From: Streptomyces sp. FIT100
GTDB taxonomy: Bacteria > Actinomycetota > Actinomycetes > Streptomycetales > Streptomycetaceae
Assembly: GCF_024584805.1 (NCBI RefSeq)
Contig: NZ_CP075715.1
Location: 124,001-188,000, forward strand
DNA length: 64,000 nt
Reading direction: 5' to 3'
Within the stretch, counting starts at the first letter, position 1; the number at the start of each line of letters is the position of its first letter. A model generated the notes under the pieces. The model was not told the origin of the DNA, made no database searches, and saw only the letters and a program-made list of their open reading frames with translations. Below, piece by piece: positions 7,061 through 46,622 of the stretch. The position numbers and the translations under genes were made by a program.

Positions 7061-7062
7061 GG

Positions 7063-29338: not shown

Positions 29339-32071
29339 GTGATCAGGCGCTTCGACCGATTGCGGGGCGTGTCCTTTCGGCGACTGATCGGCAAGCGCCC
29401 CAGGAGCGTCGCCGGGCAGGTTTTCGTCCTCCAGGCGGCGGTTGTGGTCCTGCTCGTGCTCGGGGCGATCTTCGCCCTGGTACTGCAGACCCGGCACGAC
29501 ACCGACCGTGCGGCCCGCAACCGCTCGATCGCCGTCGCGGAAACGTTCGCGCACTCCCCTGGGCTGCTGGCCACGCTGCGGCTGCCCGATCCCAGCCGGG
29601 TGCTCCAGCCCATCACGGAAGAGACCCGCAAGAGCGCGGGCGTGGACTTCATCGTGGTGATGGACACCAAGGGGATCCGCTACACGCATCCGCAGCCGGA
29701 CCGGATCGGGAAACGCTTCGTCGGGACGATAGAGCCCTCCCTCGCGGGCAAGGTGCACGTGGAGAGCGTCCAGGGCCCGCTCGGCCACGAGGTCCAGGCG
29801 GTGGTCCCCGTGACCGCGCGGGACGGCAAGGTGGTCGCTCTCGTCTCCGCGGGCCTCACCGTGCAGAATGTGACCGGCACCGTGAACCGGCAGCTGCCGG
29901 TGATCCTCGGCGCCGGCGCGGCGGGACTGGCGCTCGCCACGGCCGGCACCGCGCTGGTCACCAGACGGCTGAAACGGCAGACGCACGGTCTCGGCCCGGC
30001 CGAGATGACCCGTATGTACGAACACCACGACGCCGTTCTGCACGCCGTGCGGGAAGGGGTCGTCATCGTCAGCGGCGACGGCCGGCTGATGCTGGCGAAC
30101 GACGAGGCCAGACGCCTGCTGATGCTGGGGCCCAACGGGGAGGGGCGGCCCGTTTCGGAGCTGCCGGGCCTGTCGCCCACCACCGCCGCGCTGCTGTCGT
30201 CGGGCCGCGAGGCGACCGACGAGATCCACATCGCCGGAGAGCGGCTGCTTGTGGTGAACCAGCGGCCCACCGACGGCCCCGGCGGCACCATGGGCACGGT
30301 CGCGACCGTGCGCGACTCCACGGAGCTCCAGGCGCTGACCGGACGGGCGGAGGTGGCCCGCACCCGGCTCCAGCTGCTCTACGACGCCGGGGTCGGCATC
30401 GGCACCACGCTCGACGTCGCGCGCACGGCCCAGGAGCTCGCCGACGTCGCCGTCCCGCGCTTCGCGGACTTCGCGACCGTGGATCTCGCCGACCCGGTCC
30501 TGAACGGCGACGAGCCGAACGGCTCCGGCTCCGACATGCGCCGCACGGCCGTCAGCGGCATCCGTGACGACCACCCGCTGTACGAGCGCGGCAGGCTGAT
30601 CGACTTCCTGCCGTCGACCCCGCAGGCCCGCGGGCTGGGCACCGGGCGGGCGGAGCTGGTCAGGGACCTCTCCGCCGCGCCGGGGTGGCAGGCGCAGGAC
30701 CCGCGGCGGACGCGGGCGATCGTCGAGTACGGAATCCACTCGCTGATCACCGTCCCGTTGCAGGCCAGGGGCGTCGTCCTGGGCCTGGCGAACTTCTGGC
30801 GCTCGGAGAAGCCCGGGCCCTTCGAGGAGGAGGACGTCTCCCTCGCCGAGGAGCTGGTCGCGCGCGCCGCCGTATCCGTCGACAACGCCCGCCGCTACAC
30901 CCGTGAGCACGCCCTTGCCGTGACGCTCCAGCGGAGCCTGCTGCCGCGCGCCCTGCCCGAGCAGAGCGCGGTCGAGGTGGCGCACCGCTATCTGCCCGCG
31001 CAGTCGGGGGTGGGCGGCGACTGGTTCGACGTGATCCCGCTGCCCGGCAGCAGGGTGGCGCTGGTGGTCGGCGATGTCGTCGGGCACGGGCTGCACGCGG
31101 CCGCGACGATGGGCCGGCTGCGCACCGCGGTGCACAACTTCTCCACCCTCGACCTGCCGCCCGACGAGCTGCTCGGCCATCTCGACGACCTGGTGGGGCG
31201 CATCGACCAGGACGAGCCGGGCGGTGACGGCGGCCCCTCGATGACGGGCGCCACCTGTCTGTACGCGGTCTACGACCCCGTCTCGCGCAGATGTGCGATG
31301 GCCAGGGCGGGGCATCCACTGCCCGCGCTGGTCCATCCGGACGGCACGGTCGAGTTCCCGGAGCTGCCGGCCGGGCCGCCGCTGGGGCTCGGCGGCATGC
31401 CGTTCGAGACGGCGGAGCTCGAGCTCGCCGAGGGCAGCCGGCTGGTCTTCTACACGGACGGCCTGATCGAGGACCGCCACCGGGACATCGACGTGGGGAT
31501 CGAGCTGCTGCGCGAGACGCTCGCCCACGCCGACCGGACTCCTGAGGAGACCTGCGAGGACGTGATGAGCGCCCTCCTGCCCGCCCGTCCGAAGGACGAC
31601 GTGGCCCTGCTCATCGCCCGCAGCCGGGCTCTCGGCGCCGACCGGGTGGCGGACTGGGACGTGCCGCCCGATCCCAGCGCGGTCGCCGGCATGCGCGCGA
31701 AGGCGGTCGAGACGCTGGAGGGCTGGGGCCTGTCCGAACAGTCCTTCGCCATCGAACTGATCCTCAGCGAACTCCTCACCAACGCCATCCGCTACGGAAC
31801 GGCGCCGATCCGGGTGCGGCTGCTCCACGACCAGACGGTGACCTGCGAGGTGGCCGACGGCAGCAGCACCTCACCGCATCTGCGGTACGCGGCGACGACG
31901 GACGAGGGCGGCCGCGGGCTGTTCCTGGTGGCGCAGATGGCCGAGCGCTGGGGCACGCGGTACACGCCGGACGGGAAGATCATCTGGGCCGAACTGCCGC
32001 CGCAGGGCGCGGAGCCGCACCCGGACGCCGCGGCGGCGATGTTCGGTTTCACGGACGAAGACCTGCTCTGA
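29339..32071 (+). CDS. SpoIIE-type sensor phosphatase with CACHE-like, PAS, GAF and HATPase domains
   Basis: A 910-aa membrane regulator. A helix near residues 25-47 ([18 protein letters not shown]) and another near 180-200 flank an extracytoplasmic sensor. Then come a PAS domain (about 225-335), a GAF domain (about 345-525), a PP2C/SpoIIE phosphatase and a C-terminal HATPase (about 775-895). The phosphatase metal residues are intact: VGGDWFDV near residue 558, [17 protein letters not shown] and RPKDDVALL. The HATPase N-box is [11 protein letters not shown]. It combines anti-anti-sigma phosphatase and anti-sigma-like kinase modules in one protein. The GTG at 29339 is chosen because the basic N-terminus and first helix follow directly. 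Confidence 0.95.
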
Positions 32072-33365: not shown

Positions 33366-33811
33366 GGCCGCCGCGGCCCTTCAGGCCGCGCCCGGCCGGG
33401 CCGAGCGTCTCGGGCCTGCGGCAGTTCGCCCTCTTCGCCGCGATCGGGGTCGTCAACACGGGCGTGTACTACGCCGTGTACACCGTGCTGAACATCTGGC
33501 TGCCCTATCTCGCCGCCCACGCGGGCGGGTACGCGGTCGGCGTCACCGGTTCGTTCCTGCTCAACTCGGCCATCACGCTCCGGACGAGGCCGACCTGGCG
33601 CGGCTTCGTCCGCTATCCCCTGTCGGGCGTGGTCAGCCTCGTGTGCAGCGGGGTGCTGCTCCATCTCGCCGTCACCCGGCTGCGGATGGACGAGCACCTC
33701 GCCGCGATCGCGGCCGGAGCGCTCGTCACACCGCTGTCGTTCCTGCTCGCCCGATGGGCCATCATCTCCGGGGTGCGGGACCCCGTCACGGAAGGCGCGT
33801 CGAGTAGGTGA
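33362..33811 (+). CDS. GtrA-family membrane protein (putative lipid-linked sugar flippase)
   Basis: A 149-aa protein with four predicted helices ([73 protein letters not shown]). GtrA proteins are thought to flip or guide polyprenyl-phosphate sugars made by GtrB. The Pro/Arg-rich first 17 residues are typical of actinobacterial members. ATGA overlap with the upstream GtrB gene argues for co-translation. The last 26 bp overlap the convergent DUF6056-like gene. Confidence 0.92.
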
Positions 33812-35288
33812 CCCGCTCCAGCCGGTAGTAGGTGGCGACGCACTGGGCGGGCCACGCGTCGCGGCCCTCGCGGCGGAAGGGCTCCACCATGCCGCCCACC
33901 GACAGGGGCGTGTACGGCAGGACGCCGGCGCCCTCCGCCGCACGGGCGCGCAGCCACGCGTCCTGCCGGTCCCACCGCTCGGCGCGTACGCGCATGTCCT
34001 GGCCCAACTGGTGGAGCGGGCCCGCGAGTCCGACGGCGGTGCCCGCGTACACCGCCACGGCGGCGGCCGCCGCCCATCCCGTCCACGGCCGGGGCGCACG
34101 GGTGCGCAGCGCCCGGCCCAGCAGGACACCGGCGGCCACCAGCACCAGGACGTACAGCAGGAGGTAGTCGTTCCATGTGCGGGCGGCGGACACCACGCGC
34201 GGGCCGAAGACCGGGTAGGTGACCACGGTGCAGAGATAGCCGGAGACGAGGAAGGTGAGCGCGCCGAGCGAGGTCCCCAGCGCCGGGCCGCCGGGCCGCA
34301 GGACCGGGGGCGCCTCCGGCCTGCGGCGCACGAGCACCCCAAGGAGCACTCCGGCGGCGACGGCACCCGCGTACTGCCAGGTCGTGAACACGGTCTCCAG
34401 GATCGTCAGATACCCGCGAGCCGCCGCGGTCAGCGTGTCGGGGGAGGTCATCGATGCCGCCTCCGCCCCGAACCGTTCGCGGCGGCGGCGGGAGCCCGGG
34501 GACGTCACCAGCAGGACCGTGCCGATGGCGACGCCCGCCATGGCGACCAGGGTCCAGCGGCGGACGTGGACGCGCACCCGCTCGGCGAACAGCCGGTGGC
34601 CGAGCAGGAGGAGGCCGGCGAGCACCACCAGGGCGACCACCGAGGTCTCCTCGGAGAGCGTGCCCAGGAACACCCCGGCGACCAGGACGACGGCCAGGGC
34701 GGCGATGCGCCCCCGGCGGCCGCGGGCGCACAGGGCGGGGAGTACGGCCGCGCAGGCGAGCACGGGAGCGAGGGTGTGCGAGACGGAGGCCGCGGGCCAG
34801 TAGAAGGTCTTGTAGGTGTTGGGGGTGGCGAGGAGGAAGACCGCGGTGACCATGGCGGCCACGAGCAGCGGCACCCCGGGCGGCACGGCGCGGCCCGACC
34901 CCCGCACGAGGAGCGCGGCGAGGGCCCACAGCACGCCGAGCGTGAGCACCACGCTGACCAGCCCGAACCATTGGTGCCCGGCGACGGGGAACTGGGCGTA
35001 GAGCCCGACGAGCAGGCCGTTGCCGATCCGGCCGTTGTCGGTGACGTAGAACTTCCCGACCAGCCCCGCGATGCCGTGGTCGCGCACCACGGGCAGGAAG
35101 CACCACTCGTCCGCACTGGGCCGGACGTGGCGGCCGAACCACGCGGCGGCCGCCAGGAGGCCGAGGGGCAGCAGGGACAGCAAGGTCAGCAGGCACAGCG
35201 CCAGGGTCCGGGCCCGCCGGTGCCTGCCCGGCCGGTCCGGACCCGTCGGGTCTCGCTGGACGGTGACACCCGACGCGCGGACGGCCAT
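33786..35288 (-). CDS. DUF6056-like polytopic membrane protein (GT-C-like)
   Basis: A 500-aa protein with roughly 10-11 helices. A large first outside loop has the acidic FGRHVRPSADEWCFLPVV and YVTDNGRIGNGLLVGLYAQF, as in GT-C glycosyltransferases and DUF6056 proteins. SEETSVVALVVLAG and NTYKTFYWPAASVSHTLAP are further family-like blocks. The soluble C-terminal tail ends EPFRREGRDAWPAQCVATYY. It probably uses a polyprenyl-phosphate sugar, possibly made by the convergent GtrB/GtrA pair (inference). The ATG at 35288 removes an unsupported 44-codon extension. Confidence 0.88.
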   Translation of the reverse strand: MAVRASGVTVQRDPTGPDRPGRHRRARTLALCLLTLLSLLPLGLLAAAAWFGRHVRPSADEWCFLPVVRDHGIAGLVGKFYVTDNGRIGNGLLVGLYAQFPVAGHQWFGLVSVVLTLGVLWALAALLVRGSGRAVPPGVPLLVAAMVTAVFLLATPNTYKTFYWPAASVSHTLAPVLACAAVLPALCARGRRGRIAALAVVLVAGVFLGTLSEETSVVALVVLAGLLLLGHRLFAERVRVHVRRWTLVAMAGVAIGTVLLVTSPGSRRRRERFGAEAASMTSPDTLTAAARGYLTILETVFTTWQYAGAVAAGVLLGVLVRRRPEAPPVLRPGGPALGTSLGALTFLVSGYLCTVVTYPVFGPRVVSAARTWNDYLLLYVLVLVAAGVLLGRALRTRAPRPWTGWAAAAAVAVYAGTAVGLAGPLHQLGQDMRVRAERWDRQDAWLRARAAEGAGVLPYTPLSVGGMVEPFRREGRDAWPAQCVATYYRLERVTYSTRLP

Positions 35289-35456
35289 GTGCGCAACTGC
35301 CTTTCGTGGACTCCCTTGTCGCCGGCTGCCCGGCGGGCTCTCCCCACTCGAGGACAGCCCGGCCCAGCGCGCAACCGGCGGTGATCGATTGGAGCAACGC
35401 GGGCGGAGCGCGCGGGACACGGTGGCCTCGGGGGCGTGAATCCGCGGGCGGGGGCT

Positions 35457-37499
35457 TCAGGGCAGCGCCTGCTCCGTCCAGATCGTCTTGCCGCCCGATG
35501 TGCGGCGGGTGCCCCAGCGGCGCGTGTAGTGGGCGACCAGGTCCAGTCCGCGGCCGCCCTCGTCGTCGTAGTCGGCGTGCCGCAGATGCGGGGCGGCGCC
35601 GCTGGTGTCGGAGACCTCGCAGGTGAGCACCGTGTCGCGGATCAGCCGTAGCCCGATCGGCCCGTCCGAGTAGCGCACCGCGTTGGTCACCAGCTCGCTG
35701 GCGATGAGCCGGGTGCTGAAACCGAGCGCGCCGAGGTCCCACTCCGTGAGCCTGCCGCCGACGAGGCGGCGGGCCGCGGCGGCGCTCTCCGGCTCGTTCG
35801 GCAGGGTCCAGGAGCCGAGTTGCTCGGGGCCGAGCACGCGGGTGCGGGCGAGCAGGAGCAGTGCGTCGTCGGCGGGTGCCTCGGGCAGCAGCGCGGAGAC
35901 GAGGGCGTCGCACTTGTCCTGGAGCGGGCCCGCAGGCCCGCCCAGCGCCTCCCGGTAGAGCGGCAGCCGGCTGTCCGCGGTGCCCCGGAGAAGTCCCGCG
36001 TTCTGCAGGGCGAGGATGCTGCCTTCCGGGAGATCGAGCTCGCTCGCGGTGTACGCGGAGATGCCGCGGCCGAGGCTCGGGCCGTCCGGGCAGTCGGCGG
36101 CCTCGACACGGCCGTCGGGCAGGACGACCACGGGCGGCGGGTGGCCCGCCCGGGCGAGGACGCAGCGGCGGGTGGCGGGGTCGTAGACGACGTACAGGCA
36201 GGCCGCCGTCATGGGCGGCTCGTCGGGGTCCTCCCCCGGCGGGTACTCCTGGGCGAGCCGGCCGGTCACGTCGTGGAGGCGTTCGAGGAGTTCGTCGGGC
36301 CGGAGCTCCATGGCGGCGAAGGCGCTGACGGCCGTGCGCAGCCGGCCCATCGTGGTCACCGCCTGCATGCCGCGCCCGGACACGTCGCCCGCCACGAGGG
36401 CGATCCGCGCGCCGGACAGCGGGAGGACGTCGTACCAGACGCCGCTGGAGGCCACCGGCAGGTACGAGTACGCCGTCTCCACCGCGGCGTGCGCGGGCAG
36501 CCGGGCGGGTACCAGGGTGCGCTGGGTGAGCCGGGCCAGGGTGTGCTCGCGGGTGTAGCGGCGGGCGTTGTCGACGCAGACCGCGGCGCGGGCCGCCAGG
36601 TCGCGGGCGAGTTCGAGGTCCTCGTCCTCGAAGGGTCTGGAGCCCTTCGTGCGGTAGAAGGCCGCCATGCCGAGCACCACGCCGCGGGCGGCGAGGGGGA
36701 CGGCGATGAGCGAGTGCGCGCCGGCCTCCCGCAGCACCTCGGCCCAGGCCGGGTCCCGGGCGGTCCACGCCTCCTCCTGGCCCAGGCTGCGCACGAGCCG
36801 GGGCCGCAGGTCGGCCACGGCCCGCGCGTACGGGGTGCCGAACCGCATGACGCGCACGTCCCCGCTCACGTAGGCGTCGCGCACCGCGCGCTCGGCGCTC
36901 GCACGGAAGCCCGCCCTGCGCACCGTGACCTGGTCGAGCAGCGGACCGGGGGCGGGTGCCTCGCCGTGCAGGACGGAGTCCAGGACGTCGACGGCCGCGA
37001 TGCCGGCCAGCTCGGGCGTGGCGGCGTCGGCGAGTTCCTGCGCCGTGCGGAAGACGTCCAGGGTGGTGCCGATGGTCTCGCCGGCCCGGTAGAGCAGTTC
37101 CAGGCGCCGCTCGGCGCAGTCCCGTTCGGTGACGTCGACCGCCGTGACGCCGAGGCCCAGGGGGCTGCCTTCGGCGTCCTGGATGCGGAAGGCGGAGAGC
37201 GACAGGACCCGCTCCTCGTCCCCCGTCCGGGCGACCCGTCCCCGGTGCCGGTGGTCGACGACCGGCACCCCGGTCTCCAGCACGCCGCGGAGCATGCGCT
37301 CCGCCTCCTCGTCGAGGAGGCCCAGCTCCCGCGCCGTCCGCCCCACGCGGCCGGCCGCCTCGCCCGCGTCGATCCCGCGTACGCCCGGCCCTTCGGCGTT
37401 GAACTCCACGATCCGCAGATCGCTGTCGAGCACGTGCAGGCCGATCGGCGGCTCGCTGAAGAGGGCCTTGAGCAGTGCCACGGAGAAGTCGGGATCCAT
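35457..37499 (-). CDS. SpoIIE-type PAS-GAF-PP2C-HATPase protein with degenerate phosphatase site
   Basis: A 680-aa cytosolic paralogue of the 29339-32071 protein without membrane helices. A PAS domain (about 10-125, IGLHVLDSDLRIVEFNAEGP), a GAF domain (about 140-320), a PP2C domain (about 325-540) and a HATPase (about 565-675; N-box SELVTNAVRYS) are all recognisable. In the phosphatase the first metal motif reads SSGVWYDV instead of GGDWFDV, and YTDG is replaced by LQNAG, while AGDVSGRG and PADDALLL persist. Two metal-binding aspartates therefore appear lost and catalysis is doubtful. The HATPase looks intact, so the protein may act as a kinase or scaffold. The start is the ATG at 37499. Confidence 0.93.
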   Translation of the reverse strand: MDPDFSVALLKALFSEPPIGLHVLDSDLRIVEFNAEGPGVRGIDAGEAAGRVGRTARELGLLDEEAERMLRGVLETGVPVVDHRHRGRVARTGDEERVLSLSAFRIQDAEGSPLGLGVTAVDVTERDCAERRLELLYRAGETIGTTLDVFRTAQELADAATPELAGIAAVDVLDSVLHGEAPAPGPLLDQVTVRRAGFRASAERAVRDAYVSGDVRVMRFGTPYARAVADLRPRLVRSLGQEEAWTARDPAWAEVLREAGAHSLIAVPLAARGVVLGMAAFYRTKGSRPFEDEDLELARDLAARAAVCVDNARRYTREHTLARLTQRTLVPARLPAHAAVETAYSYLPVASSGVWYDVLPLSGARIALVAGDVSGRGMQAVTTMGRLRTAVSAFAAMELRPDELLERLHDVTGRLAQEYPPGEDPDEPPMTAACLYVVYDPATRRCVLARAGHPPPVVVLPDGRVEAADCPDGPSLGRGISAYTASELDLPEGSILALQNAGLLRGTADSRLPLYREALGGPAGPLQDKCDALVSALLPEAPADDALLLLARTRVLGPEQLGSWTLPNEPESAAAARRLVGGRLTEWDLGALGFSTRLIASELVTNAVRYSDGPIGLRLIRDTVLTCEVSDTSGAAPHLRHADYDDEGGRGLDLVAHYTRRWGTRRTSGGKTIWTEQALP

Positions 37500-37838
37500 G
37501 CCGTACGCGCCTCCTTAGTCGTACGGCGCCATGTGCTGCCCCTCGGCCTCCATTGACCCGCAGTCCGCTGAGTGCCGCATCCCGGCCGGGGGTGCCCGGC
37601 CCTGGCCGAAAAGCGCTCACCGACGCGTAAGCGTTTACCCTCCGCGCCCGCTTGATCCCGCACTGTAAGGGCGGCCTCCGCCTCACCCCGACACCTGCAC
37701 TTTTCCGTCAATTTTCACCACAGGCGCACAGAACGCACACGCAGCCTCCACCATGTGACACGTCAGGGCACGACGGCCCCGCTCCCCGAACGCGCGGGCG
37801 CCGTCGTGCCGGGGGGACACGGGGAGGGACCTCACCGC
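37500..37838. other. 339-bp divergent upstream region of the exopolysaccharide cluster
   Basis: No gene is supported. The region separates the SpoIIE-like gene (minus) from the deacetylase gene (plus) and must hold both promoters. Its centre (about 37625-37740) is the least GC-rich stretch nearby (ttttccgtcaattttcacc). It ends in a strong hairpin (37767-37810) and a ribosome-binding site (ggggaggg, 37821-37828). I looked for c-di-GMP (GEMM) and c-di-AMP riboswitch signatures and found none. Confidence 0.65.
37767..37810 (+). promoter_or_regulatory. Leader hairpin before the exopolysaccharide deacetylase gene
   Basis: Perfect 11-bp arms ggcacgacggc (37767-37777) and gccgtcgtgcc (37800-37810) enclose a second 5-bp stem (cccgc 37778-37782 with gcggg 37794-37798). 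The whole forms a 16-bp interrupted helix with a small apical loop and one bulged C. It ends 28 nt before the ATG and 10 nt before the ribosome-binding site. It could be an attenuator, a protein-binding leader or an mRNA stabiliser. Confidence 0.7.
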
Positions 37839-39908
37839 ATGGAGCGGAGCCGCACGAAGCGGACATTACGCATGGCCGCGCTCGCCGCAGGCGCGCTCGC
37901 GCTCTCGGTCGGCGGGCTGCCGGCGGCACCGGTGGCGGCGGACGAGCTGCCCCCGCGGATCGATCTGCGGGTGCTCGTCGTGTCGGACGGCGGACCGGCG
38001 GCGGAGGCCGTCGCCGCCGAGCTCGACAGCGCGGGCACGCCGTACACGGTCGTCGAACTCGCCCGTGCGGACCGCCCGTTGATCGACGCGGACTTCCTCG
38101 CCGACACGGTCGACGGCCGCCCGCGCGCCAGGTTCCAGGCCGTGGTGCTGCCGGACGACGACCCGTTCCCGGCCGGCTCCGCGGAGATGGCCGCGCTCGT
38201 GTCGTACGAGCGGACGTACGCGATCCCGCAGGTCGACGCGTACACGTACGCCAGGCCCGAGACAGGGCTGGAGTACCCCGTCGACGGGGGCTACGCGGGG
38301 CCGGTCGACGGCATGCGCGCCGCGGTGACCGCCGCGGGCGCGGCAGGACCGTTCGGCTATCTCGACGGCCCGTTCTCCTTCGAGGACAACGACCCGTCCG
38401 TCGCGGAGAGCTGGGGCTTCCTCTCCCGGCCGCGCGCGGGGGCCCCGTTCACGACCTATGTGGACGCGCCGATACCCGGCACGGCGGAGCGGGGCGCGCT
38501 CGTCGGCGAGTACCGGCACGACGGACGCAGGGAGCTCGTGGTCACCTTCGTGGCCAACCGGCACCAGCGGCAGTTCAGGGTGCTCGCCCGCGGCATCGTC
38601 GACTGGATGACCCAGGGCGTGCGGCTCGGCTCCGCGCGCAACTACTTCAGCGTGCACGTCGACGATGTCCTCGCCGCCGACGACCGCTGGGACACGGAGC
38701 TCGACTGCACGCCCGGCGACGTGGACTGCCGGCCGGGCCAGGGCACGCCGGATCCGATCCGGATGACGCCCGACGACGTCGACCGCGCCGTCCGGTGGTC
38801 ACGCACGCGCGGTTTCACGCTCGATCTGGCGTTCAACGGCGGCGGCAGCGTGGAGCACCGCGAGGAGCACGGCGGCGCCGACCCGCTGGCGGACCGGCTG
38901 ACCGCGGAGCGGGACACGTTCCGGTGGATCAACCACACCTACGACCACCCGTATCTGGGCTGCGAGCAGGACGTCGCCACCGTCCCGTGGAAGTGCGCGA
39001 CGAACCCCGACGGCAGCACGCGCTATGTGGGCCGGGCCGAGATATCCCGGCAGATCGCGGACAACCAGGAGTGGGCGCTGCGCGCGGGGCTGCCGCTGGA
39101 GAGCGGTGAGCTGGTGACCGGGGAGCACTCCGGGCTCAAGCTCCTGCCCCAGCAGCCCGAGGACAACCCCCACCTCGCGCCGGCGCTCGCGGACAACGGC
39201 GTCGCCTGGCTGGGTTCCGACAACTCCCGGGAGCCGGTGCAGCGGCGGGTCGGCCCCGCGCTCACCGTCTCCCGCCACCCGATGAACGTGTTCTACAACG
39301 CGGGCCGGGCCGCCGAGCAGGTCGACGAGTACAACTGGATCTACACCAGCAGGGCGCAGGGCGGCAGCGGCATCTGCGAGGGCTCGGCGACCACCAGCTG
39401 CCTCGACGCGCCGCTCCCCACCGCGACGGGCTTCGCGGACCATATCGTGCCGCTGGAGGCGCGGATCGCGCTGGGCCACGTCCTCGCGAACGACCCGCGT
39501 CCGCACTTCATCCACCAGTCGAACCTGGCCGAGGACCGGATCGCCTATCCGGTACTGGACAGGATCCTCGACGAGTACGCGGCGCTGTACGCCGACAGCG
39601 CCCCGCTGGTGAACCTGCGGATGCGCGACATCGGCGCCGAACTGCGCGAACGCGCCGCCTGGGACGGCGCGGTGAAGTCCGGCCAGGTCACCGGCCACCG
39701 GATCGGGGACACGGTCACCGTCACGGCCCCGGACGGAGTCGCGGTGAGCGCGACCATGCCCACGGGCACCGCGCAGAGGCTGCCCGACGGGTCCACGGCC
39801 GCCTTCGGGCAGCCGTACGCGGGCACGGTCTCCGGCCGGGTGGCCCCGGCGGCGGGCCAGGACGGCGTGGTGCTCGCGCTGCCGCGGGCACCCGGCGCCG
39901 ACCGCTGA
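37839..39908 (+). CDS. Secreted CE18/Agd3-like polysaccharide deacetylase
   Basis: A 689-aa exported protein. A signal peptide (MERSRTKRTLRMAALAAGAL, cleaved near AAPVAADE) is followed by a Rossmann-like N-terminal domain (LRVLVVSDGGPAAEAV). A deacetylase core contains NYFSVHVDDVLAADDRW (Asp275/Asp276), NHTYDHPYLGC (His366 and His370, an H-x3-H metal pair) and MNVFYNAGRAAEQ. A C-terminal beta-rich domain (VTVTAPDGVAVSATMP) follows. The layout and motifs resemble Agd3, the fungal galactosaminogalactan deacetylase (CE18), and not short CE4 enzymes. It probably removes acetyl groups from a secreted aminosugar polymer. It is the first gene of the exopolysaccharide cluster. Confidence 0.85.
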   Translation: MERSRTKRTLRMAALAAGALALSVGGLPAAPVAADELPPRIDLRVLVVSDGGPAAEAVAAELDSAGTPYTVVELARADRPLIDADFLADTVDGRPRARFQAVVLPDDDPFPAGSAEMAALVSYERTYAIPQVDAYTYARPETGLEYPVDGGYAGPVDGMRAAVTAAGAAGPFGYLDGPFSFEDNDPSVAESWGFLSRPRAGAPFTTYVDAPIPGTAERGALVGEYRHDGRRELVVTFVANRHQRQFRVLARGIVDWMTQGVRLGSARNYFSVHVDDVLAADDRWDTELDCTPGDVDCRPGQGTPDPIRMTPDDVDRAVRWSRTRGFTLDLAFNGGGSVEHREEHGGADPLADRLTAERDTFRWINHTYDHPYLGCEQDVATVPWKCATNPDGSTRYVGRAEISRQIADNQEWALRAGLPLESGELVTGEHSGLKLLPQQPEDNPHLAPALADNGVAWLGSDNSREPVQRRVGPALTVSRHPMNVFYNAGRAAEQVDEYNWIYTSRAQGGSGICEGSATTSCLDAPLPTATGFADHIVPLEARIALGHVLANDPRPHFIHQSNLAEDRIAYPVLDRILDEYAALYADSAPLVNLRMRDIGAELRERAAWDGAVKSGQVTGHRIGDTVTVTAPDGVAVSATMPTGTAQRLPDGSTAAFGQPYAGTVSGRVAPAAGQDGVVLALPRAPGADR

Positions 39909-39915
39909 CCGCCGC

Positions 39916-40024
39916 CCCTCCGACTGCGGACCGCGGACCGACCCGCGGACCGCGAACCTACCCTCCGACTGCGGACCGCCGACCGACCCGCGGACCGCGG
40001 AGCGCCGACCGACCCGCTGAGCGC
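39916..40024. repeat. 45-bp tandem repeat between deacetylase and pelF
   Basis: Two and a third copies of a 45-bp unit (ccctccgactgcggaccgc(g/c)gaccgacccgcggaccgcg..) start at 39916 and 39961. The unit itself contains sub-repeats of cggaccg. The array fills most of the 174-bp gap between the first two exopolysaccharide genes. No promoter or terminator signal is obvious inside it. Confidence 0.85.
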
Positions 40025-40082
40025 TGACCCGAGACGCGAGCACGCCCTCGCACCACTTCACCTCCTGCCGTGGAGTCCGTGA

Positions 40083-41660
40083 ATGCACGCCATGCACACC
40101 ATGCACGCCCGTCCCCCTGCGCCCCCCGCGTCCCGCCGGGGCGCCGCGCGGGTCACCCTCCTCACCGAAGGCACCTATCCGCACAGTCACGGCGGTGTGA
40201 GCGTCTGGTGCGACCAGCTCGTACGCGGCATGCCCGACGTCGACTTCGACGTCATCGCCGTTACGGGCACCGGCCGCGAGCCCGTGGTCTGGGAGCTGCC
40301 GCCGCATGTGAGCGAGCCCGTCACGGTCCCTATGTGGGGCCCGGCTCCCGCCGGTTCGCGCCCGCGCGGCCGCCGGGAGCGGCAGCTGACGGCCGCGTAC
40401 GAACGCTTCCTCACCGCGCTGCTCGACCCGTCCGCCGAGGACGGCTTCGGTCCGGCGCTGTACGAGCTGGCGCGCGCCGCCCGCGACGGGCTGCTCGGCC
40501 CAGTCCTGCGCGGCGACCGCGCGCTGCGGGTGCTGACGGGGGTGTGGAACCGGCCGGGCCTGACCGTACGGGAGGCCCGGCCGACGCTGCACGACGCCGT
40601 CACCGCCACCGGGCTGCTGGAGCACGCGCTGCGGCCGCTGGGCGCACGCCCGCCCGAGCAGGGGGTGGCGCACGCCGTCAGCGGGGGCATCGCCGTGCTC
40701 CCCGGGCTCGCCGCGCTCGAACTCCACGGCGTGCCGCTGCTCCTGACCGAGCACGGGGTCTATCTGCGCGAGCGCTGTCTGGGGTACCGGACGGCGCCGT
40801 ACCGCTGGCCGGTCAAGGCCGTGCTGCTCGGCTTCTTCCGGCTGCTCGCGCAGGAGTCCTACCGGCGGGCGGCGCTGATCACGCCCGGCAACCGCTACAA
40901 CCGGCTGTGGGAGGAGCAGGGCGGAGCCGACCCCCGGCTGATACGCACCGTCTACAACGGCGTCGATCCGGCGGCGTTCCCGCCCGCCGGCCCGGAGCCC
41001 GGCAGCCCGACGCTGAGCTGGGCGGGACGGGTCGACCCGATCAAGGACCTGGAGACCCTGATCCGCGCCTTCGACGGGGTCAGGGGCGCGCTCCCGCAGG
41101 CGACGCTGCGGCTGTTCGGCGGTACGCCGCGCGGCGGGGAGGCGTACCGCGAGCGCTGCGAGGCGCTCGCCGCCTCGCTCGGGCACAGGGACGCGGTCTC
41201 CTTCGAGGGCCGGGTCGAGGACATCAGGGACGCGTACGCGGCGGGGAACGTGGTGATGCTGTCCAGCATCAGCGAGGGCTTCCCCTTCACGCTGATCGAG
41301 GCGATGTCGTGCGGCCGGGCGACGGTCTCCACCGATGTGGGCGGGGTGCGGGAGGCGGTCGGCGGGACCGGGCTCGTCGTGCCGCCGCGCGATCCGGCCG
41401 CGATGGCGGCGGCCGCGCTGGAGCTGCTCGCCGATCCGGTGCGCCGGGCGGCGATGGGCGAGGCGGCCCGGTTGCGGGTGATCGAGCAGTTCACGCTCCG
41501 GCAGACCGTGGAGACCTTCCGGTCCATCTACCTCGAACTGTCCGTGCGGGGCGCCTGCCGGCTCGCCGACCCCTGGGGCCCGTCCGCCGAGTCCGGACCG
41601 ACCTGCGACGGCAGCCCGTTCCCCGGCGCCGGTGCGGCGCTGCGGAGCGTGGCGGGATGA
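40083..41660 (+). CDS. pelF: PelF-type GT4 glycosyltransferase
   Basis: A 525-aa GT-B retaining glycosyltransferase. The N-terminal domain opens with VTLLTEGTYPHSHGGVSVWC and contains LLLTEHGVYLRER, both PelF signatures. The C-terminal domain has VYNGVDPAAFPP, WAGRVDPIKDLETLIRAF and the E-x7-E-like SEGFPFTLIEAMSCG. PelF polymerises an aminosugar-rich chain at the inner face of the membrane with PelG in Pel systems, and the fungal counterpart Gtb3 is also GT4. Three ATGs lie within the first seven codons; the first is used. Its stop overlaps the next gene by ATGA, pointing to a synthase complex with that membrane protein. Confidence 0.93.
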   Translation: MHAMHTMHARPPAPPASRRGAARVTLLTEGTYPHSHGGVSVWCDQLVRGMPDVDFDVIAVTGTGREPVVWELPPHVSEPVTVPMWGPAPAGSRPRGRRERQLTAAYERFLTALLDPSAEDGFGPALYELARAARDGLLGPVLRGDRALRVLTGVWNRPGLTVREARPTLHDAVTATGLLEHALRPLGARPPEQGVAHAVSGGIAVLPGLAALELHGVPLLLTEHGVYLRERCLGYRTAPYRWPVKAVLLGFFRLLAQESYRRAALITPGNRYNRLWEEQGGADPRLIRTVYNGVDPAAFPPAGPEPGSPTLSWAGRVDPIKDLETLIRAFDGVRGALPQATLRLFGGTPRGGEAYRERCEALAASLGHRDAVSFEGRVEDIRDAYAAGNVVMLSSISEGFPFTLIEAMSCGRATVSTDVGGVREAVGGTGLVVPPRDPAAMAAAALELLADPVRRAAMGEAARLRVIEQFTLRQTVETFRSIYLELSVRGACRLADPWGPSAESGPTCDGSPFPGAGAALRSVAG

Positions 41661-43036
41661 GCGGCCCCATGGCGCTCGAACCGGACGGCGGCGGGGGCGA
41701 CACGCTCTCGCTGCGGCTGGCCCGCGCCGACACCACGCTCGCCCTGCGGTCGCCGGTGGCCGGCGACGACCCGGTGGACCTGCTGGCGGCCGAACTGTCC
41801 GACCGGATAGGGCCCGCCGTCCATCCGTACGAGGTCGCCGCCCTGCTCGAGTCGGAGGGGCTGACCGGCGAGCGGATCACGGAGCGCTACGGCCACCCCG
41901 ACCTCTTCTCGCTTGCCGCCGATCTCCACGGCCGGGTGCCCCGCAGCTTCCCCGAGCCCCCGCCCGCGGCCGACCCCTGGGCGCCCGACCATGTCCGCTG
42001 CGCGCTGCGCGGGGCGCTCTTCGCGCTGCCCGGTCTCGCGTATCTGCTGACCGGGCGGCTGTGGCACACCGAGCGGGGGGTGTACGCACTGGTCGCGGCG
42101 GGGCTGCTGTCCTGGGCCTGGGGGCAGGCGCTCAGCCATCGCGCCGCGCTGCGGCTGACCGCTGGGCGCAGGGAGGCGGGCGGCACGCTGCTCGTCGGCG
42201 CGCCGTTGGGGGCGCTCGCCGCGTCCCTCGCGGGCTTCGCCGTCGCGGGACCGGGCCCCGCGGCGCTCTTCGCCGCCGGGCAGTCGCTGTATCTCGCGGC
42301 GGCCGGGGTGCTGCTGGTGTGCGGCAGGGAGCGCCTGCTGCTCGCGGCGCTCGCCCCGCTGACGGCGGGTGCGGCTGCACTGCCGTGGTGGGATCCGGGT
42401 CCGCTGTCGCGCATCGCACTTCCGGCGCTGACGGTCGTGCTGTCCGTCGCCGCCGCGGGGCACGTGATCCGGGAGCTGCTCGGTGCGGACGCCGCGTCCG
42501 GTGCCGGGCGCCCGGGGCTCGCCACCTCGCTCCCGTACGGGCTGTTCGGGCTCTCCGCCGCTGTGCTGGTCGCGCTCGTGGGGCAGCGGCAGCCGCTCGC
42601 CGTGGTCGCGCTGACGCTGAGCATGGGGCCGGCGGAATGGCTGCTCTACCGCTACCGGGGGCTGTCGGTGGCGGCGCTTCGGGCGACCGTGGACGAGAGG
42701 GCCTTCCGGCTGCGGTCCGCGGCGGTGCTGGCGGTCTGCCTGGGCGGCTATCTCCTCCCGCTGGTCCCCGCGGCCCTGCTGACGCGGGCGGCCCCCGGCC
42801 CGCTGCTCGCCGTGGCGGCGCTGCTGTGGTGCGCGCTGCTGCTCCAGGCGTTCGGGATCGCCTGGCTGCCTGCCGCGGTCACGCTCGCGACCGCGGCCGC
42901 GGCGGGCACGGCGGCCGTCGCGCTCGGCGGCGGCCCGCCGGGCTCCACATCGCTGCTGCTGTGCTGCGGCATCGCGGCCGTGGTGCTCATGGCCGGCGTC
43001 CTGTTGCTGCTCGGCAGGCCGGCCGCGCACGCCTGA
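41657..43036 (+). CDS. Polytopic membrane protein, putative PelG-like partner of PelF
   Basis: A 459-aa protein. About 110 soluble N-terminal residues (AVHPYEVAALLESEGLTGER; RYGHPDLFSLAADLHGRVP) precede 10-12 hydrophobic helices from about residue 115 to the end. I do not recognise the family with certainty. Helix count, size and the ATGA coupling to pelF make it a candidate for the membrane transporter that PelG provides in Pel systems (inference). The sequence is Leu/Ala-rich with few charged residues inside the helices. It is followed by a gap containing a 15-bp tandem repeat. Confidence 0.85.
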   Translation: MSGPMALEPDGGGGDTLSLRLARADTTLALRSPVAGDDPVDLLAAELSDRIGPAVHPYEVAALLESEGLTGERITERYGHPDLFSLAADLHGRVPRSFPEPPPAADPWAPDHVRCALRGALFALPGLAYLLTGRLWHTERGVYALVAAGLLSWAWGQALSHRAALRLTAGRREAGGTLLVGAPLGALAASLAGFAVAGPGPAALFAAGQSLYLAAAGVLLVCGRERLLLAALAPLTAGAAALPWWDPGPLSRIALPALTVVLSVAAAGHVIRELLGADAASGAGRPGLATSLPYGLFGLSAAVLVALVGQRQPLAVVALTLSMGPAEWLLYRYRGLSVAALRATVDERAFRLRSAAVLAVCLGGYLLPLVPAALLTRAAPGPLLAVAALLWCALLLQAFGIAWLPAAVTLATAAAAGTAAVALGGGPPGSTSLLLCCGIAAVVLMAGVLLLLGRPAAHA

Positions 43037-43045
43037 CCTCGCGGT

Positions 43046-43105
43046 TCCCCGTGGACAGGCTCCCCATGGACCGGCTTCCCGCGGACCGACTCCCCGTGGA
43101 CCGAC
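43046..43105. repeat. 15-bp tandem repeat between membrane protein and dehydratase genes
   Basis: Four units of tcccc(g/a)tggac(c/a)g(g/a)c-type sequence begin at 43046, 43061, 43076 and 43091. In one plus-strand frame they read as xDRLP pentads, but that frame is not part of either neighbouring gene. The array ends about 40 bp before the TTG start of the dehydratase gene. Confidence 0.88.
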
Positions 43106-43146
43106 TCCTCCGTATGCCAACTCCTGCGACCTGAAAGGAACACGCG

Positions 43147-44148
43147 TTGACATCCGCACCGCTCGCCGCCGTGACCGGAGCCGAGGGCTTCATCGGCTCG
43201 CACCTCACCGAGGCGCTGGTCGCCTCGGGCCACCGGGTCCGCGCCATGGCCCAGTACAACTCCTTCTCCTCCTACGGCTGGCTGGAGACCCTGCCGGCCG
43301 AGGTGCTCGACCACGTCGAGATCGTGCTGGGCGACGTCCGCGACCCGGGCTCGGTGCGCGCCCTGGCCGAGGGCGCCGACACGGTCTACCACCTGGCCGC
43401 GCTGATCGCGATCCCGTACTCGTACCAGGCGCCGCACAGTTACGTGGAGACGAACGTCACCGGCACCCTCAATGTGCTGGAGGCGGTCCGGGCACTGGAC
43501 GTCCCGCGGCTCGTGCACACCTCCACGAGTGAGACGTACGGGACCGCGCGGACGGTGCCCATCACCGAGGACCACCCCATCCACACCCAGTCCCCGTACG
43601 CGGCCTCGAAGGCCGGCGCGGACCGGCTGGCCGACAGCTACCACGCGAGCTTCGAGACACCGGTGGTGACGCTGCGTCCGTTCAACACCTACGGCCCCCG
43701 GCAGTCGATGCGGGCGGTGATCCCGACCGTCATCGGCCAGGTCGCCTCCGGGGCCGGCACCATCACCCTCGGCGATCTGCGGCCCACCCGCGACTTCACC
43801 TTCGTCGAGGACACCGCGAGGGCCTTCCTCGCGGTCGGCACCGCTCCGGCCGACGCCGTCGTGGGCCGGACCTTCAACGCCGGTACGGGAGGCGAGATCT
43901 CGGTGGGCGAGCTCGTCCGGCTCATCGCCAAGGTCATGGACGCCGACCTCGACGTCCGGGAGGACGCTCAGCGCGTCCGGCCGGCCGGCTCGGAGGTGAT
44001 GCGGCTGGTCGCGGACGCGAGCCGGCTGCGCGCGGCGACCGGCTGGGCACCCCGGACGGATCTGGAGCAGGGCCTCGCCAGGACCGCGGAGTTCTTCCGC
44101 GACCCCGCCCATCTCGCCCGCTACAAGACCGGCATCTACAACGTCTGA
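43147..44148 (+). CDS. LegB-like NAD-dependent sugar 4,6-dehydratase/epimerase
   Basis: A 333-aa extended SDR. The NAD loop is VTGAEGFIGSHL, the catalytic triad shows TSTSETYG and SPYAASK, and YNSFSSYGWLETLP is characteristic of LegB-type UDP-GlcNAc 4,6-dehydratases. It therefore probably makes a 4-keto-6-deoxy aminosugar nucleotide, although 4-epimerase activity cannot be excluded. Translation starts at the TTG at 43147, with gaaagga about 8 nt upstream. The protein ends RYKTGIYNV. It supplies an activated sugar for the neighbouring PelF-type enzyme (inference). Confidence 0.9.
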   Translation: MTSAPLAAVTGAEGFIGSHLTEALVASGHRVRAMAQYNSFSSYGWLETLPAEVLDHVEIVLGDVRDPGSVRALAEGADTVYHLAALIAIPYSYQAPHSYVETNVTGTLNVLEAVRALDVPRLVHTSTSETYGTARTVPITEDHPIHTQSPYAASKAGADRLADSYHASFETPVVTLRPFNTYGPRQSMRAVIPTVIGQVASGAGTITLGDLRPTRDFTFVEDTARAFLAVGTAPADAVVGRTFNAGTGGEISVGELVRLIAKVMDADLDVREDAQRVRPAGSEVMRLVADASRLRAATGWAPRTDLEQGLARTAEFFRDPAHLARYKTGIYNV

Positions 44149-44190
44149 CCGGCTCCGTCCCAACCGCCGCCCGACGACCACCGACCGAAC

Positions 44191-44295
44191 CATCGACCAC
44201 CGCACCACCGCACGCTGCATCACCGACCGCCGCACCACCGACCACCGCACCACCGCACGCTGAATCACCGACCGCCGCACCATCGACCGCCGCAC
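44191..44295. repeat. 45-bp tandem repeat between dehydratase and nucleotidyltransferase genes
   Basis: Two full 45-bp units (44191-44235, 44236-44280) and a 15-bp partial unit (44281-44295) of ca(t/c)cgaccaccgcaccacc gcacgctg(c/a)atcaccgacc..-type sequence fill the gap. Each 45-bp unit is three diverged 15-mers, as shown by the repeating ccgac/ccgcac pattern. The array stops 17 bp before the ATG of the nucleotidyltransferase; the ribosome-binding site (aggggggat) lies immediately after it. Confidence 0.87.
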
Positions 44296-44312
44296 CCACA
44301 GGGGGGATCCTC

Positions 44313-45026
44313 ATGCACGCAGTGATACTCGCCGGAGGCAAGGGCATCCGGCTGCGTCCGTACACCACCGCGCTGCCGAAGCCGCTCGTCCCGATCGGCG
44401 ACCGGCACGCCATCCTGGAGATCGTCCTGCGCCAGCTCGCCGCCTGCGGCTTCACCGGCTGCACGATCGCCGTCGGGCATCTCGGCCAGATCATCCGCGC
44501 CTACGTCGGCAGCGGTTCACGCTGGGGGCTGAGCATCGACTACGCGACCGAGGAGAACCCGCTCGGCACCATGGGCCCGCTGCTGACCATGCGGGACCGG
44601 CTGCCGGAGACCTTCCTGGTGATGAACGGCGACATCCTCACCGACCTCGACTACGCCGATGTGCTGCGGCGCCACCGCACCACCGGCGCCGGGCTGACGA
44701 TCGCCACCTACGCCCGCAAGGTGCACATCGACTTCGGGGTGCTGACCACGGACGCCGGAAAGGTCGTGGACTTCACGGAGAAGCCCAGCATGGACTACCG
44801 GGTGTCGATGGGCGTGTACGGGCTCTCCCGCACCACCCTGGACGGCTACACTCCCGGGCTGCCGCTCGGCTTCGACGAGCTCGTCCTCGATCTGCTGAAG
44901 GCCGGGGACGCACCGCACGCCTACGAGTTCGACGGTTACTGGCTGGACATCGGCCGCCCCGACGACTACGACCGGGCCAACGCCGAGTTCACCACCCAGA
45001 AGTCACTGCTGCTCAAGGGAGCCTGA
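44313..45026 (+). CDS. Sugar-1-phosphate nucleotidyltransferase
   Basis: A 237-aa NTP_transferase. The signature AVILAGGKGIRLRPYT is followed by LPKPLVPIGDRHAILEI. VMNGDILTDLDY carries the metal-binding Asp, and VDFTEKPSMDYRVSMGVYGL carries the EKP sugar-phosphate site. C-terminal WLDIGRPDDYDRAN is typical of glucose-1-phosphate/mannose-1-phosphate-type enzymes. No acyltransferase or hexapeptide repeat domain is attached. It makes a nucleotide sugar for the cluster, upstream of the two SDR enzymes in the pathway (inference). Only 7 bp separate it from the next gene. Confidence 0.94.
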   Translation: MHAVILAGGKGIRLRPYTTALPKPLVPIGDRHAILEIVLRQLAACGFTGCTIAVGHLGQIIRAYVGSGSRWGLSIDYATEENPLGTMGPLLTMRDRLPETFLVMNGDILTDLDYADVLRRHRTTGAGLTIATYARKVHIDFGVLTTDAGKVVDFTEKPSMDYRVSMGVYGLSRTTLDGYTPGLPLGFDELVLDLLKAGDAPHAYEFDGYWLDIGRPDDYDRANAEFTTQKSLLLKGA

Positions 45027-45033
45027 CCACGAC

Positions 45034-45957
45034 ATGCGCATCCTCGTCCTGGGCTTCAACGGATACCTGGGCGGCCACATCGCCGGACAGCTGCGCGCCC
45101 TCGGGGGCGTGCGGCTGTTCGGCGCGGGCCGCGCCCCGACCGCCGATCTGCACATCGACCTCGCCACGGCCACGACGGAGCAGCTGGCCGACGCGCTCGC
45201 CGACTTCTCACCCGACGCGGTCGTCAACTGCGCGGGGGCACTGGGCAGCGATCCGGTGTCGGACGCCGAGGTCAACGCGCGCGGGCCCGCCGTGCTGTGC
45301 GGGGCGCTGCGGCTGGCCGCGCCGGCCGCCCGGCTGGTGCACCTGGGTTCGGCCGCCGAGTACGGAGCGGCCGGCCACGGCGTGCGGGTCACCGAGTCGT
45401 CCTCCACCCGGCCGGCCGGCACGTACGGCGCGACCAAGCTCGCGGGCACGGTCGCGGTCGCCTCGTCGGGGCTCGACGCGGTCGTGCTGCGGGTCGGCAA
45501 CCCGGTCGGGCCGGGCGCACCGCCCATGAGCCTGCCGGGCCGCACCGCGCTGCGGCTCCTCCGGGCCGGCACGGACCCGGACGCGGTCCTCCGCCTCGGC
45601 GAGCTGTCCGCGTACCGGGACTTCGTCGACGTACGGGACGTGGCCCGGGCGGCCGTGCTGGCCACGACCGTGCCCGGGCCGCTGCCCCGCATCCTCAACA
45701 TCGGCGGCGGTCACGCCGTCCCGATCAGGGAGCTGGTGCGGACGCTGGCGGACGTGGCGGGGTTCCGGGGGCGGATCGACGAGACCGCCGACGCCGAGGC
45801 CGGATCGGTCCGCTCCGCCGGGGTCGGCTGGCAGTGCTCCGACATCACCGCGGCCCGCGAGGCGCTCGGCTGGGAGCCCCGGTTCACCCTGGCGGACTCG
45901 CTCGCCGCGCTGTGGGCGTCGGAGACGTCCCGGCCGCGTCTGGAAGCGATGCCATGA
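45034..45957 (+). CDS. NAD(P)-dependent sugar epimerase/reductase (extended SDR)
   Basis: A 307-aa Rossmann protein (MRILVLGFNGYLGGHIAGQL). It resembles RmlD/epimerase-type SDRs, with LVHLGSAAEYGAAG at the Ser position, TYGATKLAGTVAV as the YxxxK catalytic pair, and a C-terminal substrate domain (ILNIGGGHAVPIRELVRTLA). The product is probably a modified nucleotide sugar reduced or epimerised after the LegB-like step (inference). Its stop overlaps the ATG of the GH135 gene (ATGA). Confidence 0.9.
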   Translation: MRILVLGFNGYLGGHIAGQLRALGGVRLFGAGRAPTADLHIDLATATTEQLADALADFSPDAVVNCAGALGSDPVSDAEVNARGPAVLCGALRLAAPAARLVHLGSAAEYGAAGHGVRVTESSSTRPAGTYGATKLAGTVAVASSGLDAVVLRVGNPVGPGAPPMSLPGRTALRLLRAGTDPDAVLRLGELSAYRDFVDVRDVARAAVLATTVPGPLPRILNIGGGHAVPIRELVRTLADVAGFRGRIDETADAEAGSVRSAGVGWQCSDITAAREALGWEPRFTLADSLAALWASETSRPRLEAMP

Positions 45958-46622
45958 CGCTGCTCGTTCCGCTCTATGTCCATCCCGCCCAGGACCCGGG
46001 AGCCTGGCGGCTGCTCACGCGGGCCGCGGCAGCGCACCGGCTCTACGGAGTGGTGCTGAACGCGGCGGACGGCCCCGGCGCCGCGCCCGACCCGGCGTTC
46101 GCCGCCGCCTCCCGCGCCCTGCGGGCGGCGGGCACCCGCGTCCTCGGCTACGTCGACCTGGACTACGGCGTGCGCCCGGACTCCGCCGTCCTCGACGACG
46201 TCGACCGCCACCGCGACTGGTACGGCGCCGACGGCTGCTTCTTCGACCAGGTGCCGGCCGACGCGTCGGCGCTGCCCGTGTGCCGCCGGCTGGTGCGTGC
46301 GGCGCGGCAGCGGGGCGCGGCGACGGTCGTCCTCAACCCCGGGGTGCATCCGGCGCCCGGCTACGCCCGGATCGCGGATCTGCTCGTGACGTTCGAGGGA
46401 CCGTGGACGGCGTACCTGTCGTCCTTCACCCTCCCGCGCTGGACCGCCCGCCATCCACCGCAGCGGTTCTGCCATCTCGTGTACGGGGTGCCGGCCGCGC
46501 TGGCCCAGGTCGCCGAGCGGGCGGCCGAGGAGCGCGGCGCGGCGGTGTCGTGCGCGGTCGCGGACACGCTGCCCAATCCCTGGGCGGCCCCGCCGCCCGC
46601 CCTGCTCGGGGAGGCGCCGTGA
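45954..46622 (+). CDS. Spherulin-4/GH135-like protein
   Basis: A 222-aa TIM-barrel-like protein of the spherulation-specific family 4, to which the fungal galactosaminogalactan hydrolase Sph3 (GH135) belongs. Support: LLVPLYVHPAQDPGAWRLL, VLNAADGPG, VLGYVDLDYGVR, GADGCFFDQVPAD (Asp98-Gln99) and ADLLVTFEGPWTAY. The barrel strand that often reads FFDE carries Gln here. There is no signal peptide or lipobox, so as encoded it would stay in the cytoplasm, unlike Sph3. It is coupled by ATGA to the SDR upstream and by a stop/start relay to the GH114 gene downstream. Confidence 0.86.
   Translation: MTLLVPLYVHPAQDPGAWRLLTRAAAAHRLYGVVLNAADGPGAAPDPAFAAASRALRAAGTRVLGYVDLDYGVRPDSAVLDDVDRHRDWYGADGCFFDQVPADASALPVCRRLVRAARQRGAATVVLNPGVHPAPGYARIADLLVTFEGPWTAYLSSFTLPRWTARHPPQRFCHLVYGVPAALAQVAERAAEERGAAVSCAVADTLPNPWAAPPPALLGEAP

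Follow-up and report, generated by a model that had tools for sequence, protein, structure and literature searches.

Is the SpoIIE-type regulator encoded at positions 35457-37499 of the 64,000-nucleotide stretch of Streptomyces sp. FIT100 analysed here (contig NZ_CP075715.1; hereafter the window) still a phosphatase? Its product combines PAS and GAF sensor domains with a PP2C domain of the SpoIIE family and an RsbW-like HATPase domain, and a previous sequence-only reading had taken the PP2C domain for a probable pseudophosphatase. The comparisons described below strengthen that reading, which is well supported at the level of sequence, and widen it from one gene to a clade; loss of metal ligands is a property of this clade, a point absent from the sequence-only reading. 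Since the gene belongs to a Streptomyces family of such genes, it is probably a working regulator, though labelled in databases as an enzyme that it may no longer be. L and G numbers designate loci and genomes, respectively (the host genome, a single contig of 7.97 Mb, is G000, and the window is G000:C1:124001-188000), and four-letter strings such as V-D-A-D give the residues at the GGD, GD, TDG and DD positions.

Metal-site residues and closest orthologues

The intact paralogue at 29339-32071 of the window was used as reference. Where it has GGDWFD, the regulator has SGVWYD (amino acids (aa) 352-357, immediately N-terminal to the PF07228 match), with D replaced by V at 354, and the FYTDG of the paralogue pairs without gaps with LQNAG of the regulator (aa 498-502), in which TDG has become NAG, with D replaced by A at 501. 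Both replacements had been noticed previously, as GGDW to SGVW and YTDG to LQNAG, and were borne out by the reading of the open reading frame (ORF) and by the alignment; the paralogue was likewise found to keep D at all four positions, as had been claimed. Retained in the regulator are D372 (GDVSGRG) and D544/D545 (the DD of PADDAL), and the acidic metal-site set is incomplete, with two of four positions kept. The GGD aspartate (D610 in SpoIIE) is presumably a metal ligand in addition to those described for SpoIIE. These are D628, D746, D795 and the carbonyl of G629 (PMC5468089; PMC8080068).

Streptomyces sp. NBC_01483 and NBC_01717 carry full-length orthologues on linear plasmids (65.6% and 64.3% identity; two records read of 59 matched in the plasmid search). 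Both (L175 and L176) are V-D-A-D, with the same two replacements as the window gene, and degeneration of a single gene or a sequencing error was rejected because these replacements are shared. A further orthologue, L031, is A-D-A-D, with both losses and A in place of V. In a tree of 65 rows the window gene grouped with the two plasmid genes at 99/94 and with these and L031 at 100/99. One of the plasmid orthologues bears the database label 'SpoIIE family protein phosphatase' (WP_329167229.1).

A degenerate clade within Streptomyces

A search of 392 genomes of the same genus gave a match at E up to 1e-175 in 24 of them; among the 23 matches besides the window gene, one or more of the four aspartates are gone in 15 (L031-L045), and eight (L046-L053) are intact. 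With a profile of 18 degenerate members, 17 loci in 16 of the 392 genomes reached at least 980 bits, followed by one at 914 and by others at 883 and below; this count is a lower bound, as scoring was limited to three candidates in each genome and further degenerate members occur among the lower scores. After the profile search 40 more regions were fetched and read.

In a first tree of 84 rows, from which the motif columns were excluded, the window gene fell in a clade of 34 rows (SH-aLRT 96; membership judged by eye on this tree). At least one aspartate is missing in 32 of the 34 and at least two in 30, counts that are no measure of prevalence, the rows having been picked by similarity. The TDG aspartate is absent from 31 of the 34 rows, among them all 20 that form the core to which the window gene belongs. 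Outside the clade, 44 of 50 rows are intact and six have one change; there the GGD aspartate is never missing (0/50) and the TDG aspartate is missing in five, all D to N. By comparison with these 50 rows, the residue losses in the clade exceed chance. The loop before GGDW also marks the clade, though its columns stayed out of the tree: it has 10 residues in 30 of the 34 rows (11, 11, 12 and 15 in the remaining four), and 14 residues in 47 and 12 in three of the 50 rows outside. A more careful tree of 65 rows, again without the motif columns, recovered the clade with 38 rows (support 96/99) and the core with 24 rows (100/100); for it, 24 close comparison rows were omitted (22 with four aspartates, and L100 and L112 with N at TDG) and five rows were added.

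Omitted from the 84-row tree were L010, L011, L014, L020, L021, L023, L027 and L028, which have no aligned HATPase, and L016, L017, L019 and L022, which are distant; all twelve have D at the four places. Omitted earlier were L001 and L004 (the same genes as the two window proteins), 18 repeat loci among L055-L080, and L018, L024, L025, L026, L029 and L030 (fragments, HATPase-only genes or second frames). L098, L100, L109, L111, L112, L113 and L171 are intact apart from one D to N replacement, YTDG or FTDG to TNG, that recurs among them.

Beyond the genus sample, 199 relatives (55 genera) yielded five with a match of E 1e-182 or lower, each from the window's own genus, and a scan of genome contigs gave one intact relative. 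When 245 genomes of the order were searched, matches with E no higher than 1e-225 came from G566, which represents one other genus of the family, and from G400 and G402, of a single genus in another family. Of these order matches only L177 (G402) was read; it is degenerate (A-D-D-R), with the short loop and intact kinase boxes.

These residues bear on whether the PP2C domain could still be an enzyme, a weak or altered-metal phosphatase using D372, D544 and other ligands. The D628 and D795 equivalents are kept in the regulator, in L031 and in both plasmid orthologues, D357, near the lost position 354, is invariant in 84 of 84 rows, and the domain is under purifying selection. On the other hand, the closest relatives have V or A at the first lost position and A at the second, neither residue being a metal ligand, and across the clade the D628 and D795 positions also change (16 and 25 of 34 rows, respectively). 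A surviving enzyme is considered distinctly unlikely.

Selection and fold of the PP2C domain

Ratios of nonsynonymous to synonymous substitution (dN/dS) were computed by NG86 with the Jukes-Cantor correction, which is rough on GC-rich DNA, for pairs of other clade members, for the plasmid pair and for rather distant pairs with the window gene. For the PP2C domain dN/dS was below 1 in all pairs computed (0.16-0.69 in clade and orthologue pairs), with 0.16-0.42 in eight clade pairs versus 0.07-0.28 in 11 comparison pairs, among them the L100/L112 pair with N at TDG. In the plasmid pair L175/L176 the value was 0.31, the lowest among its four domains. The window gene against L175, L176 and L031 gave 0.47, 0.51 and 0.62 for PP2C and 0.37, 0.34 and 0.38 for HATPase, and L031 against the two plasmid genes gave 0.69 and 0.64 for PP2C. 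The mean ratio of PP2C to HATPase divergence was 1.26 in the clade (98 pairs, 31 rows) versus 1.03 in intact rows (718 pairs, 41 rows). Together, these values suggest that the PP2C domain is relaxed but kept.

A predicted model of aa 311-556 (pLDDT 68.4, pTM 0.68), informative on the fold and not on ligand geometry, matched Rv1364c best (3ke6, Z 19.7), as well as SpoIIE (5ucg, Z 18.0), RssB (3eq2, Z 15.7) and RsbX (Foldseek/VIA). As judged from this model, the PP2C fold is retained.

The opposite possibility is that the gene is decaying and that the PP2C domain, or even the protein as a whole, no longer has a function. A syntenic copy in another genome (G290) is a remnant, the replacements at the four places are many and different within the clade, and both the raised divergence ratio and the values of 0.47-0.62 in the window-gene pairs would agree with it. 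Against this, none of the 24 places of the genus search has a stop inside the matched stretch, PP2C dN/dS is below 1 wherever computed, the GC pattern is typical of coding DNA across all four domains of the regulator, the ribosome-binding site is good and the kinase boxes are invariant. Decay is accordingly given very little probability.

HATPase domain and proposed mechanism

E602, N606, D631, G649, R650 and G651 are invariant in all 34 clade rows and all 50 other rows. E602 and N606 are taken here to be the N-box residues, D631 the G1 aspartate, and G649 and G651 the G2 glycines. PAS, GAF and HATPase domains had been described as looking intact, which was confirmed in so far as all three are recognisable by Pfam. 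A change to a kinase-only or binding role had also been proposed; what stands of this is the invariance of the RsbW-like box residues checked, while the role itself is deduced.

In the partner switch, the sigma factor is sequestered by an RsbW-type kinase, whose substrate is a STAS protein; the phosphate is taken off again by a phosphatase of the RsbU type (PMC8346170). The PP2C domains of SpoIIE and RsbU read the STAS fold through three surface loops, and RsbU works as a dimer (PMC11418112, PMC12143880). The regulator, with a PAS-GAF sensor, a PP2C domain apparently without phosphatase chemistry and an RsbW-like kinase, is best explained as a sensor-gated anti-sigma factor and kinase, a reading that is held to be reasonably probable. 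The HATPase domain would hold a SigB-family sigma factor and phosphorylate a STAS anti-anti-sigma protein, and the pseudo-PP2C domain would be a structural, dimerising or phospho-STAS-docking module passing on the PAS/GAF signal. In the intact relatives one chain would be able to add and remove phosphate; in the regulator the removal arm would be gone and its own phosphorylation could not be reversed by the same chain, so that reversal would have to come from another phosphatase, for instance the intact paralogue at 29339-32071.

Several points weigh against this sensor-gated kinase. The loss of phosphatase activity is deduced from residue losses; of the pseudophosphatase proposal, the ligand losses common to orthologues and clade and the purifying selection on the domain speak in its favour, but two of the four acidic positions remain, and with the D628 and D795 equivalents kept one metal could still bind. 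Two clade members, L083 and L119, are intact at all four positions, and a third, L111, is changed at one (D-D-N-D), from which the loss probably arose more than once; the minimum number of changes between intact and lost is four on the 84-row tree (four to seven for single positions) and six on the 65-row tree. The higher PP2C dN/dS in the pairs with the window gene and L031 suggests looser constraint on this branch, and the remnant in G290 indicates that the regulator is dispensable there. On the kinase side, the HATPase_c_2 match is barely over threshold (28.3 bits against a cut-off of 27.4), the choice of rows by similarity and the dropping of HATPase-less rows bias the alignment toward intact boxes, and one gene of the own genome, L161, has a degenerate SpoIIE domain without aligned HATPase. 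No STAS or sigma gene was found among the window genes scanned within 27631-49182, and a model of the whole protein built with three sequences was poor (pLDDT 45.5) and was set aside.

A wider and more speculative proposal, for which the chances are put well below even, is that Streptomyces and its order hold many phospho-STAS readers in which PP2C chemistry has been lost repeatedly and docking kept. Fused to live anti-sigma kinases and shielding the phosphorylated anti-anti-sigma factor (or dimerising with intact RsbU-type paralogues), these would form a latch opened only by a different intact paralogue, and some, on linear plasmids, would serve as exchangeable modifiers of the sigma network.

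Comparison with known systems

The nearest described relative is Rv1364c of Mycobacterium tuberculosis, a PAS-RsbU-RsbW-RsbV fusion that, like the regulator, carries PP2C followed by an RsbW-like kinase on one chain and is its best solved match by sequence (E 1.3e-7) as well as by fold. It has a C-terminal anti-anti-sigma domain (PMC12143880), which the regulator lacks: no STAS (RsbV) family was detected in the regulator by Pfam at E up to 0.001, and its C-terminus lies six residues past the HATPase match. Rv1364c also has GGDWFD, GDVVGHG and YTDG where the regulator has SGVWYD and QNAG. OsaC of Streptomyces coelicolor (SCO5747) presumably bears an RsbW-like domain as well. It shares with the regulator the joining of GAF and PAS sensors to PP2C, and it targets SigB (PMC8346170, PMC12143880); it differs, as far as its description allows it to be set apart, in being counted among the documented stress-response phosphatases (PMC12143880). 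SpoIIE and RsbU of Bacillus subtilis have the same PP2C fold and belong to the same Pfam family, but they are active phosphatases, and the equivalent of the SpoIIE ligand D746 is A in the regulator.

Precedents for what is proposed here are RssB, for lost chemistry with kept function, and PHLPP2, for a PPM domain without activity. RssB of Escherichia coli belongs to the same phosphatase family, has lost the chemistry and is now an adaptor (PMC12143880). It differs from the regulator in that the loss came by C-terminal truncation and in having a response-regulator receiver and no kinase domain, its adaptor function being in sigma-S degradation; Pfam detected no receiver in the regulator at E up to 0.001, which has PAS and GAF instead. 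The animal pseudophosphatases PHLPP2 and TAB1 have PPM domains without activity and differ in being eukaryotic, with unrelated domain partners, and PHLPP2 is reported to bind zinc (PMC12002173). Unlike the regulator, SypE of Vibrio fischeri has a response-regulator architecture, and the likeness is by description and not by sequence. SypE is said to be a multi-domain regulator of biofilm polysaccharide in which RsbW-like and PP2C domains are joined.

Among the open-access papers listed by the literature searches (for two queries the best 20 of 214 and of 138), most subscription journals being outside this scope, none was found to describe SpoIIE domains of Streptomyces as degenerate. For S. 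coelicolor, the reported numbers are 44 phosphatases of the RsbU/RsbP type, 45 anti-sigma factors of the RsbW type and 17 partners of the RsbV type (PMC8346170). If the clade were truly dead as phosphatase and competent as kinase, such phosphatase counts would be wrong, labels such as that of the plasmid orthologue would mislead and the sigma network would have a built-in class of one-way regulators. The clade would also allow the evolution of PPM pseudophosphatases to be followed in genetically tractable bacteria, L083 and L119 serving as four-aspartate members for direct comparison.

Locus and gene architecture

The features of the window discussed here are listed in Table 1. NCBIfam gave a PAS-box match on the regulator and nothing more. 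The DUF6056 gene, 36 bp downstream on the same strand, is possibly co-transcribed with the regulator; in L141, L142 and L143, however, it had a match and the regulator had none.

Table 1. Coordinates of the regulator, its domains and metal-site codons, and neighbouring features (positions in the window).
Feature	Position	Strand	Basis and remarks
PAS-GAF-PP2C-HATPase regulator (putative pseudo-PP2C)	35457..37499	-	680 aa, ATG start, ORF bounds exact
AAGGAGG Shine-Dalgarno-like run, 10 nt ahead of the regulator ATG	37510..37516	-	Read from sequence
PAS_4 domain, aa 18-126	37122..37448	-	Pfam, E 2.6e-14
GAF domain, aa 218-308	36576..36848	-	Pfam, E 1.9e-10
SpoIIE/PP2C domain PF07228, aa 363-553	35841..36413	-	Pfam, E 7.1e-35; PP2C fold by model of aa 311-556
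HATPase_c_2 (RsbW-like) domain, aa 567-674	35478..35801	-	Pfam, E 1.9e-6; N-box SELVTNA, G1 D631, G2 GGRG intact
Codon 354, V in SGVW (D in paralogue GGDW)	36438..36440	-	Alignment
Codon 372, D kept, GDVSGRG, SpoIIE D628 position	36384..36386	-	Alignment
Codon 501, A in QNAG (D in paralogue YTDG), SpoIIE D746 position	35997..35999	-	Alignment
Codon 544, D kept, SpoIIE D795 position	35868..35870	-	Alignment
Intact paralogue, sCache-PAS-GAF-SpoIIE-HATPase, all four aspartates	29339..32071	+	Pfam and alignment
DUF6056 protein	33786..35420	-	
Exopolysaccharide cluster	37755-47451	+	Pfam; divergent from regulator
DUF3492/GT4 gene	40083-41660	+	Pfam
Membrane-like protein without match	41632-43134	+	

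SpoIIE-type genes of the own genome and neighbourhoods

In the own genome 32 SpoIIE-domain genes were read, of which four are degenerate: the window gene, L002 (D-S-P-E), L008 (A-E-K-G) and L161; the sequence of L167 ended before the fourth position. By similarity, L161 (3873853-3876014) does not belong to the clade (30% identity); it reads E-S-D, with the fourth position aligned as E or gap and a glycine/alanine/histidine-rich run ahead of it. Toward one contig end, a segment of about 75 kb (G000 122-196 kb) contains six SpoIIE-type genes, at 122627, 154263, 159460, 187999, 190126 and 193553.

Neighbourhoods were compared in 21 regions, the window included, and an intact SpoIIE-type gene shares the region in eight of them, a raw count; five of the eight (L128, L131-L134) are one lineage. 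L138, at about 426-430 kb of the own genome, has a degenerate PP2C-HATPase gene followed on the same strand by an intact SpoIIE gene that overlaps it by 4 bp (4595-9069, minus strand), a natural pairing of dead-looking and live phosphatase genes. Such neighbours could favour a dominant partner, in which the PP2C domain of the regulator would use the dimer interface to pair with that of an active RsbU-type paralogue, inactivating the paralogue or changing its tuning. RsbU is activated through PP2C dimerisation, and the authors of that work expect the same of other members (PMC12143880), and the eight regions and the overlap in L138 are in line with this. The dominance of one lineage among the eight speaks against it, and it leaves the retention of the kinase boxes unexplained; it is regarded as unlikely.

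With SpoIIE-type genes set aside, a recurring partner gene across the 21 regions was rejected: a loose short-chain-dehydrogenase-type group occurred in five, four groups in four and three groups in three, and five of these last seven groups were confined to the single lineage L128, L131-L134. In L130 a degenerate PP2C-HATPase gene has a short HATPase-only (RsbW-like) frame (6055-6483, plus strand) 10 bp upstream of it.

The exopolysaccharide cluster

Besides the genes of Table 1, the cluster divergent from the regulator holds two epimerases, a nucleoside triphosphate (NTP) transferase, and spherulin-4 and GH114 genes, and it resembles the Actinobacterial operons set beside the fungal galactosaminogalactan cluster in PMC7229062. 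Its first gene, at 37755, has no Pfam match and no solved-structure match, the latter also as regards a relationship to Agd3; it could be the cluster deacetylase. With a limit of E 1e-90, loose enough to let in paralogues, the cluster glycosyltransferase had a match in 195 of 295 genomes.

It had been suggested that the regulator controls this cluster, and this found little support. The two are adjacent and divergent in the window, and in G290 a syntenic remnant of the regulator (L144, 7484-8461, minus strand), joining aa 1-96, 539-578 and 670-679 with most of GAF, PP2C and HATPase gone, stands in the same place, so that the arrangement is not wholly private; the adjoining homologue of the 37755 gene matches over 134 aa only, at 39%. 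Relatives also occur nearby: a degenerate T-E-P-H gene of 42% identity (L156, 37-2076, plus strand) is found upstream of the 37755 homologue of one cluster, at 4.6 kb, and in G230 (L178, near 6915264-6917648) the clade member L111 lies about 1.5 kb past the PolX end of the cluster. Against this, none of the 20 homologous clusters fetched has an intact orthologue beside it, the regions reaching 2.0 to 8.7 kb upstream of the 37755 homologue in 19 of the 20 (L155 has no 37755 match), and the neighbourhoods of the orthologues L031, L175 and L176 differ from that of the window, the L031 region matching nothing of the cluster. The link to the cluster is therefore mostly local, and control of it by the regulator is improbable.

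In L141 the regulator gap is occupied by genes that, on inspection by eye, look like the ATPase and the solute-binding protein of an ABC transporter. Elsewhere in the window, at about 26.7-27.9 kb, the same peptides recur several times in overlapping ORF translations, which suggests an imperfect repeat in non-coding DNA.

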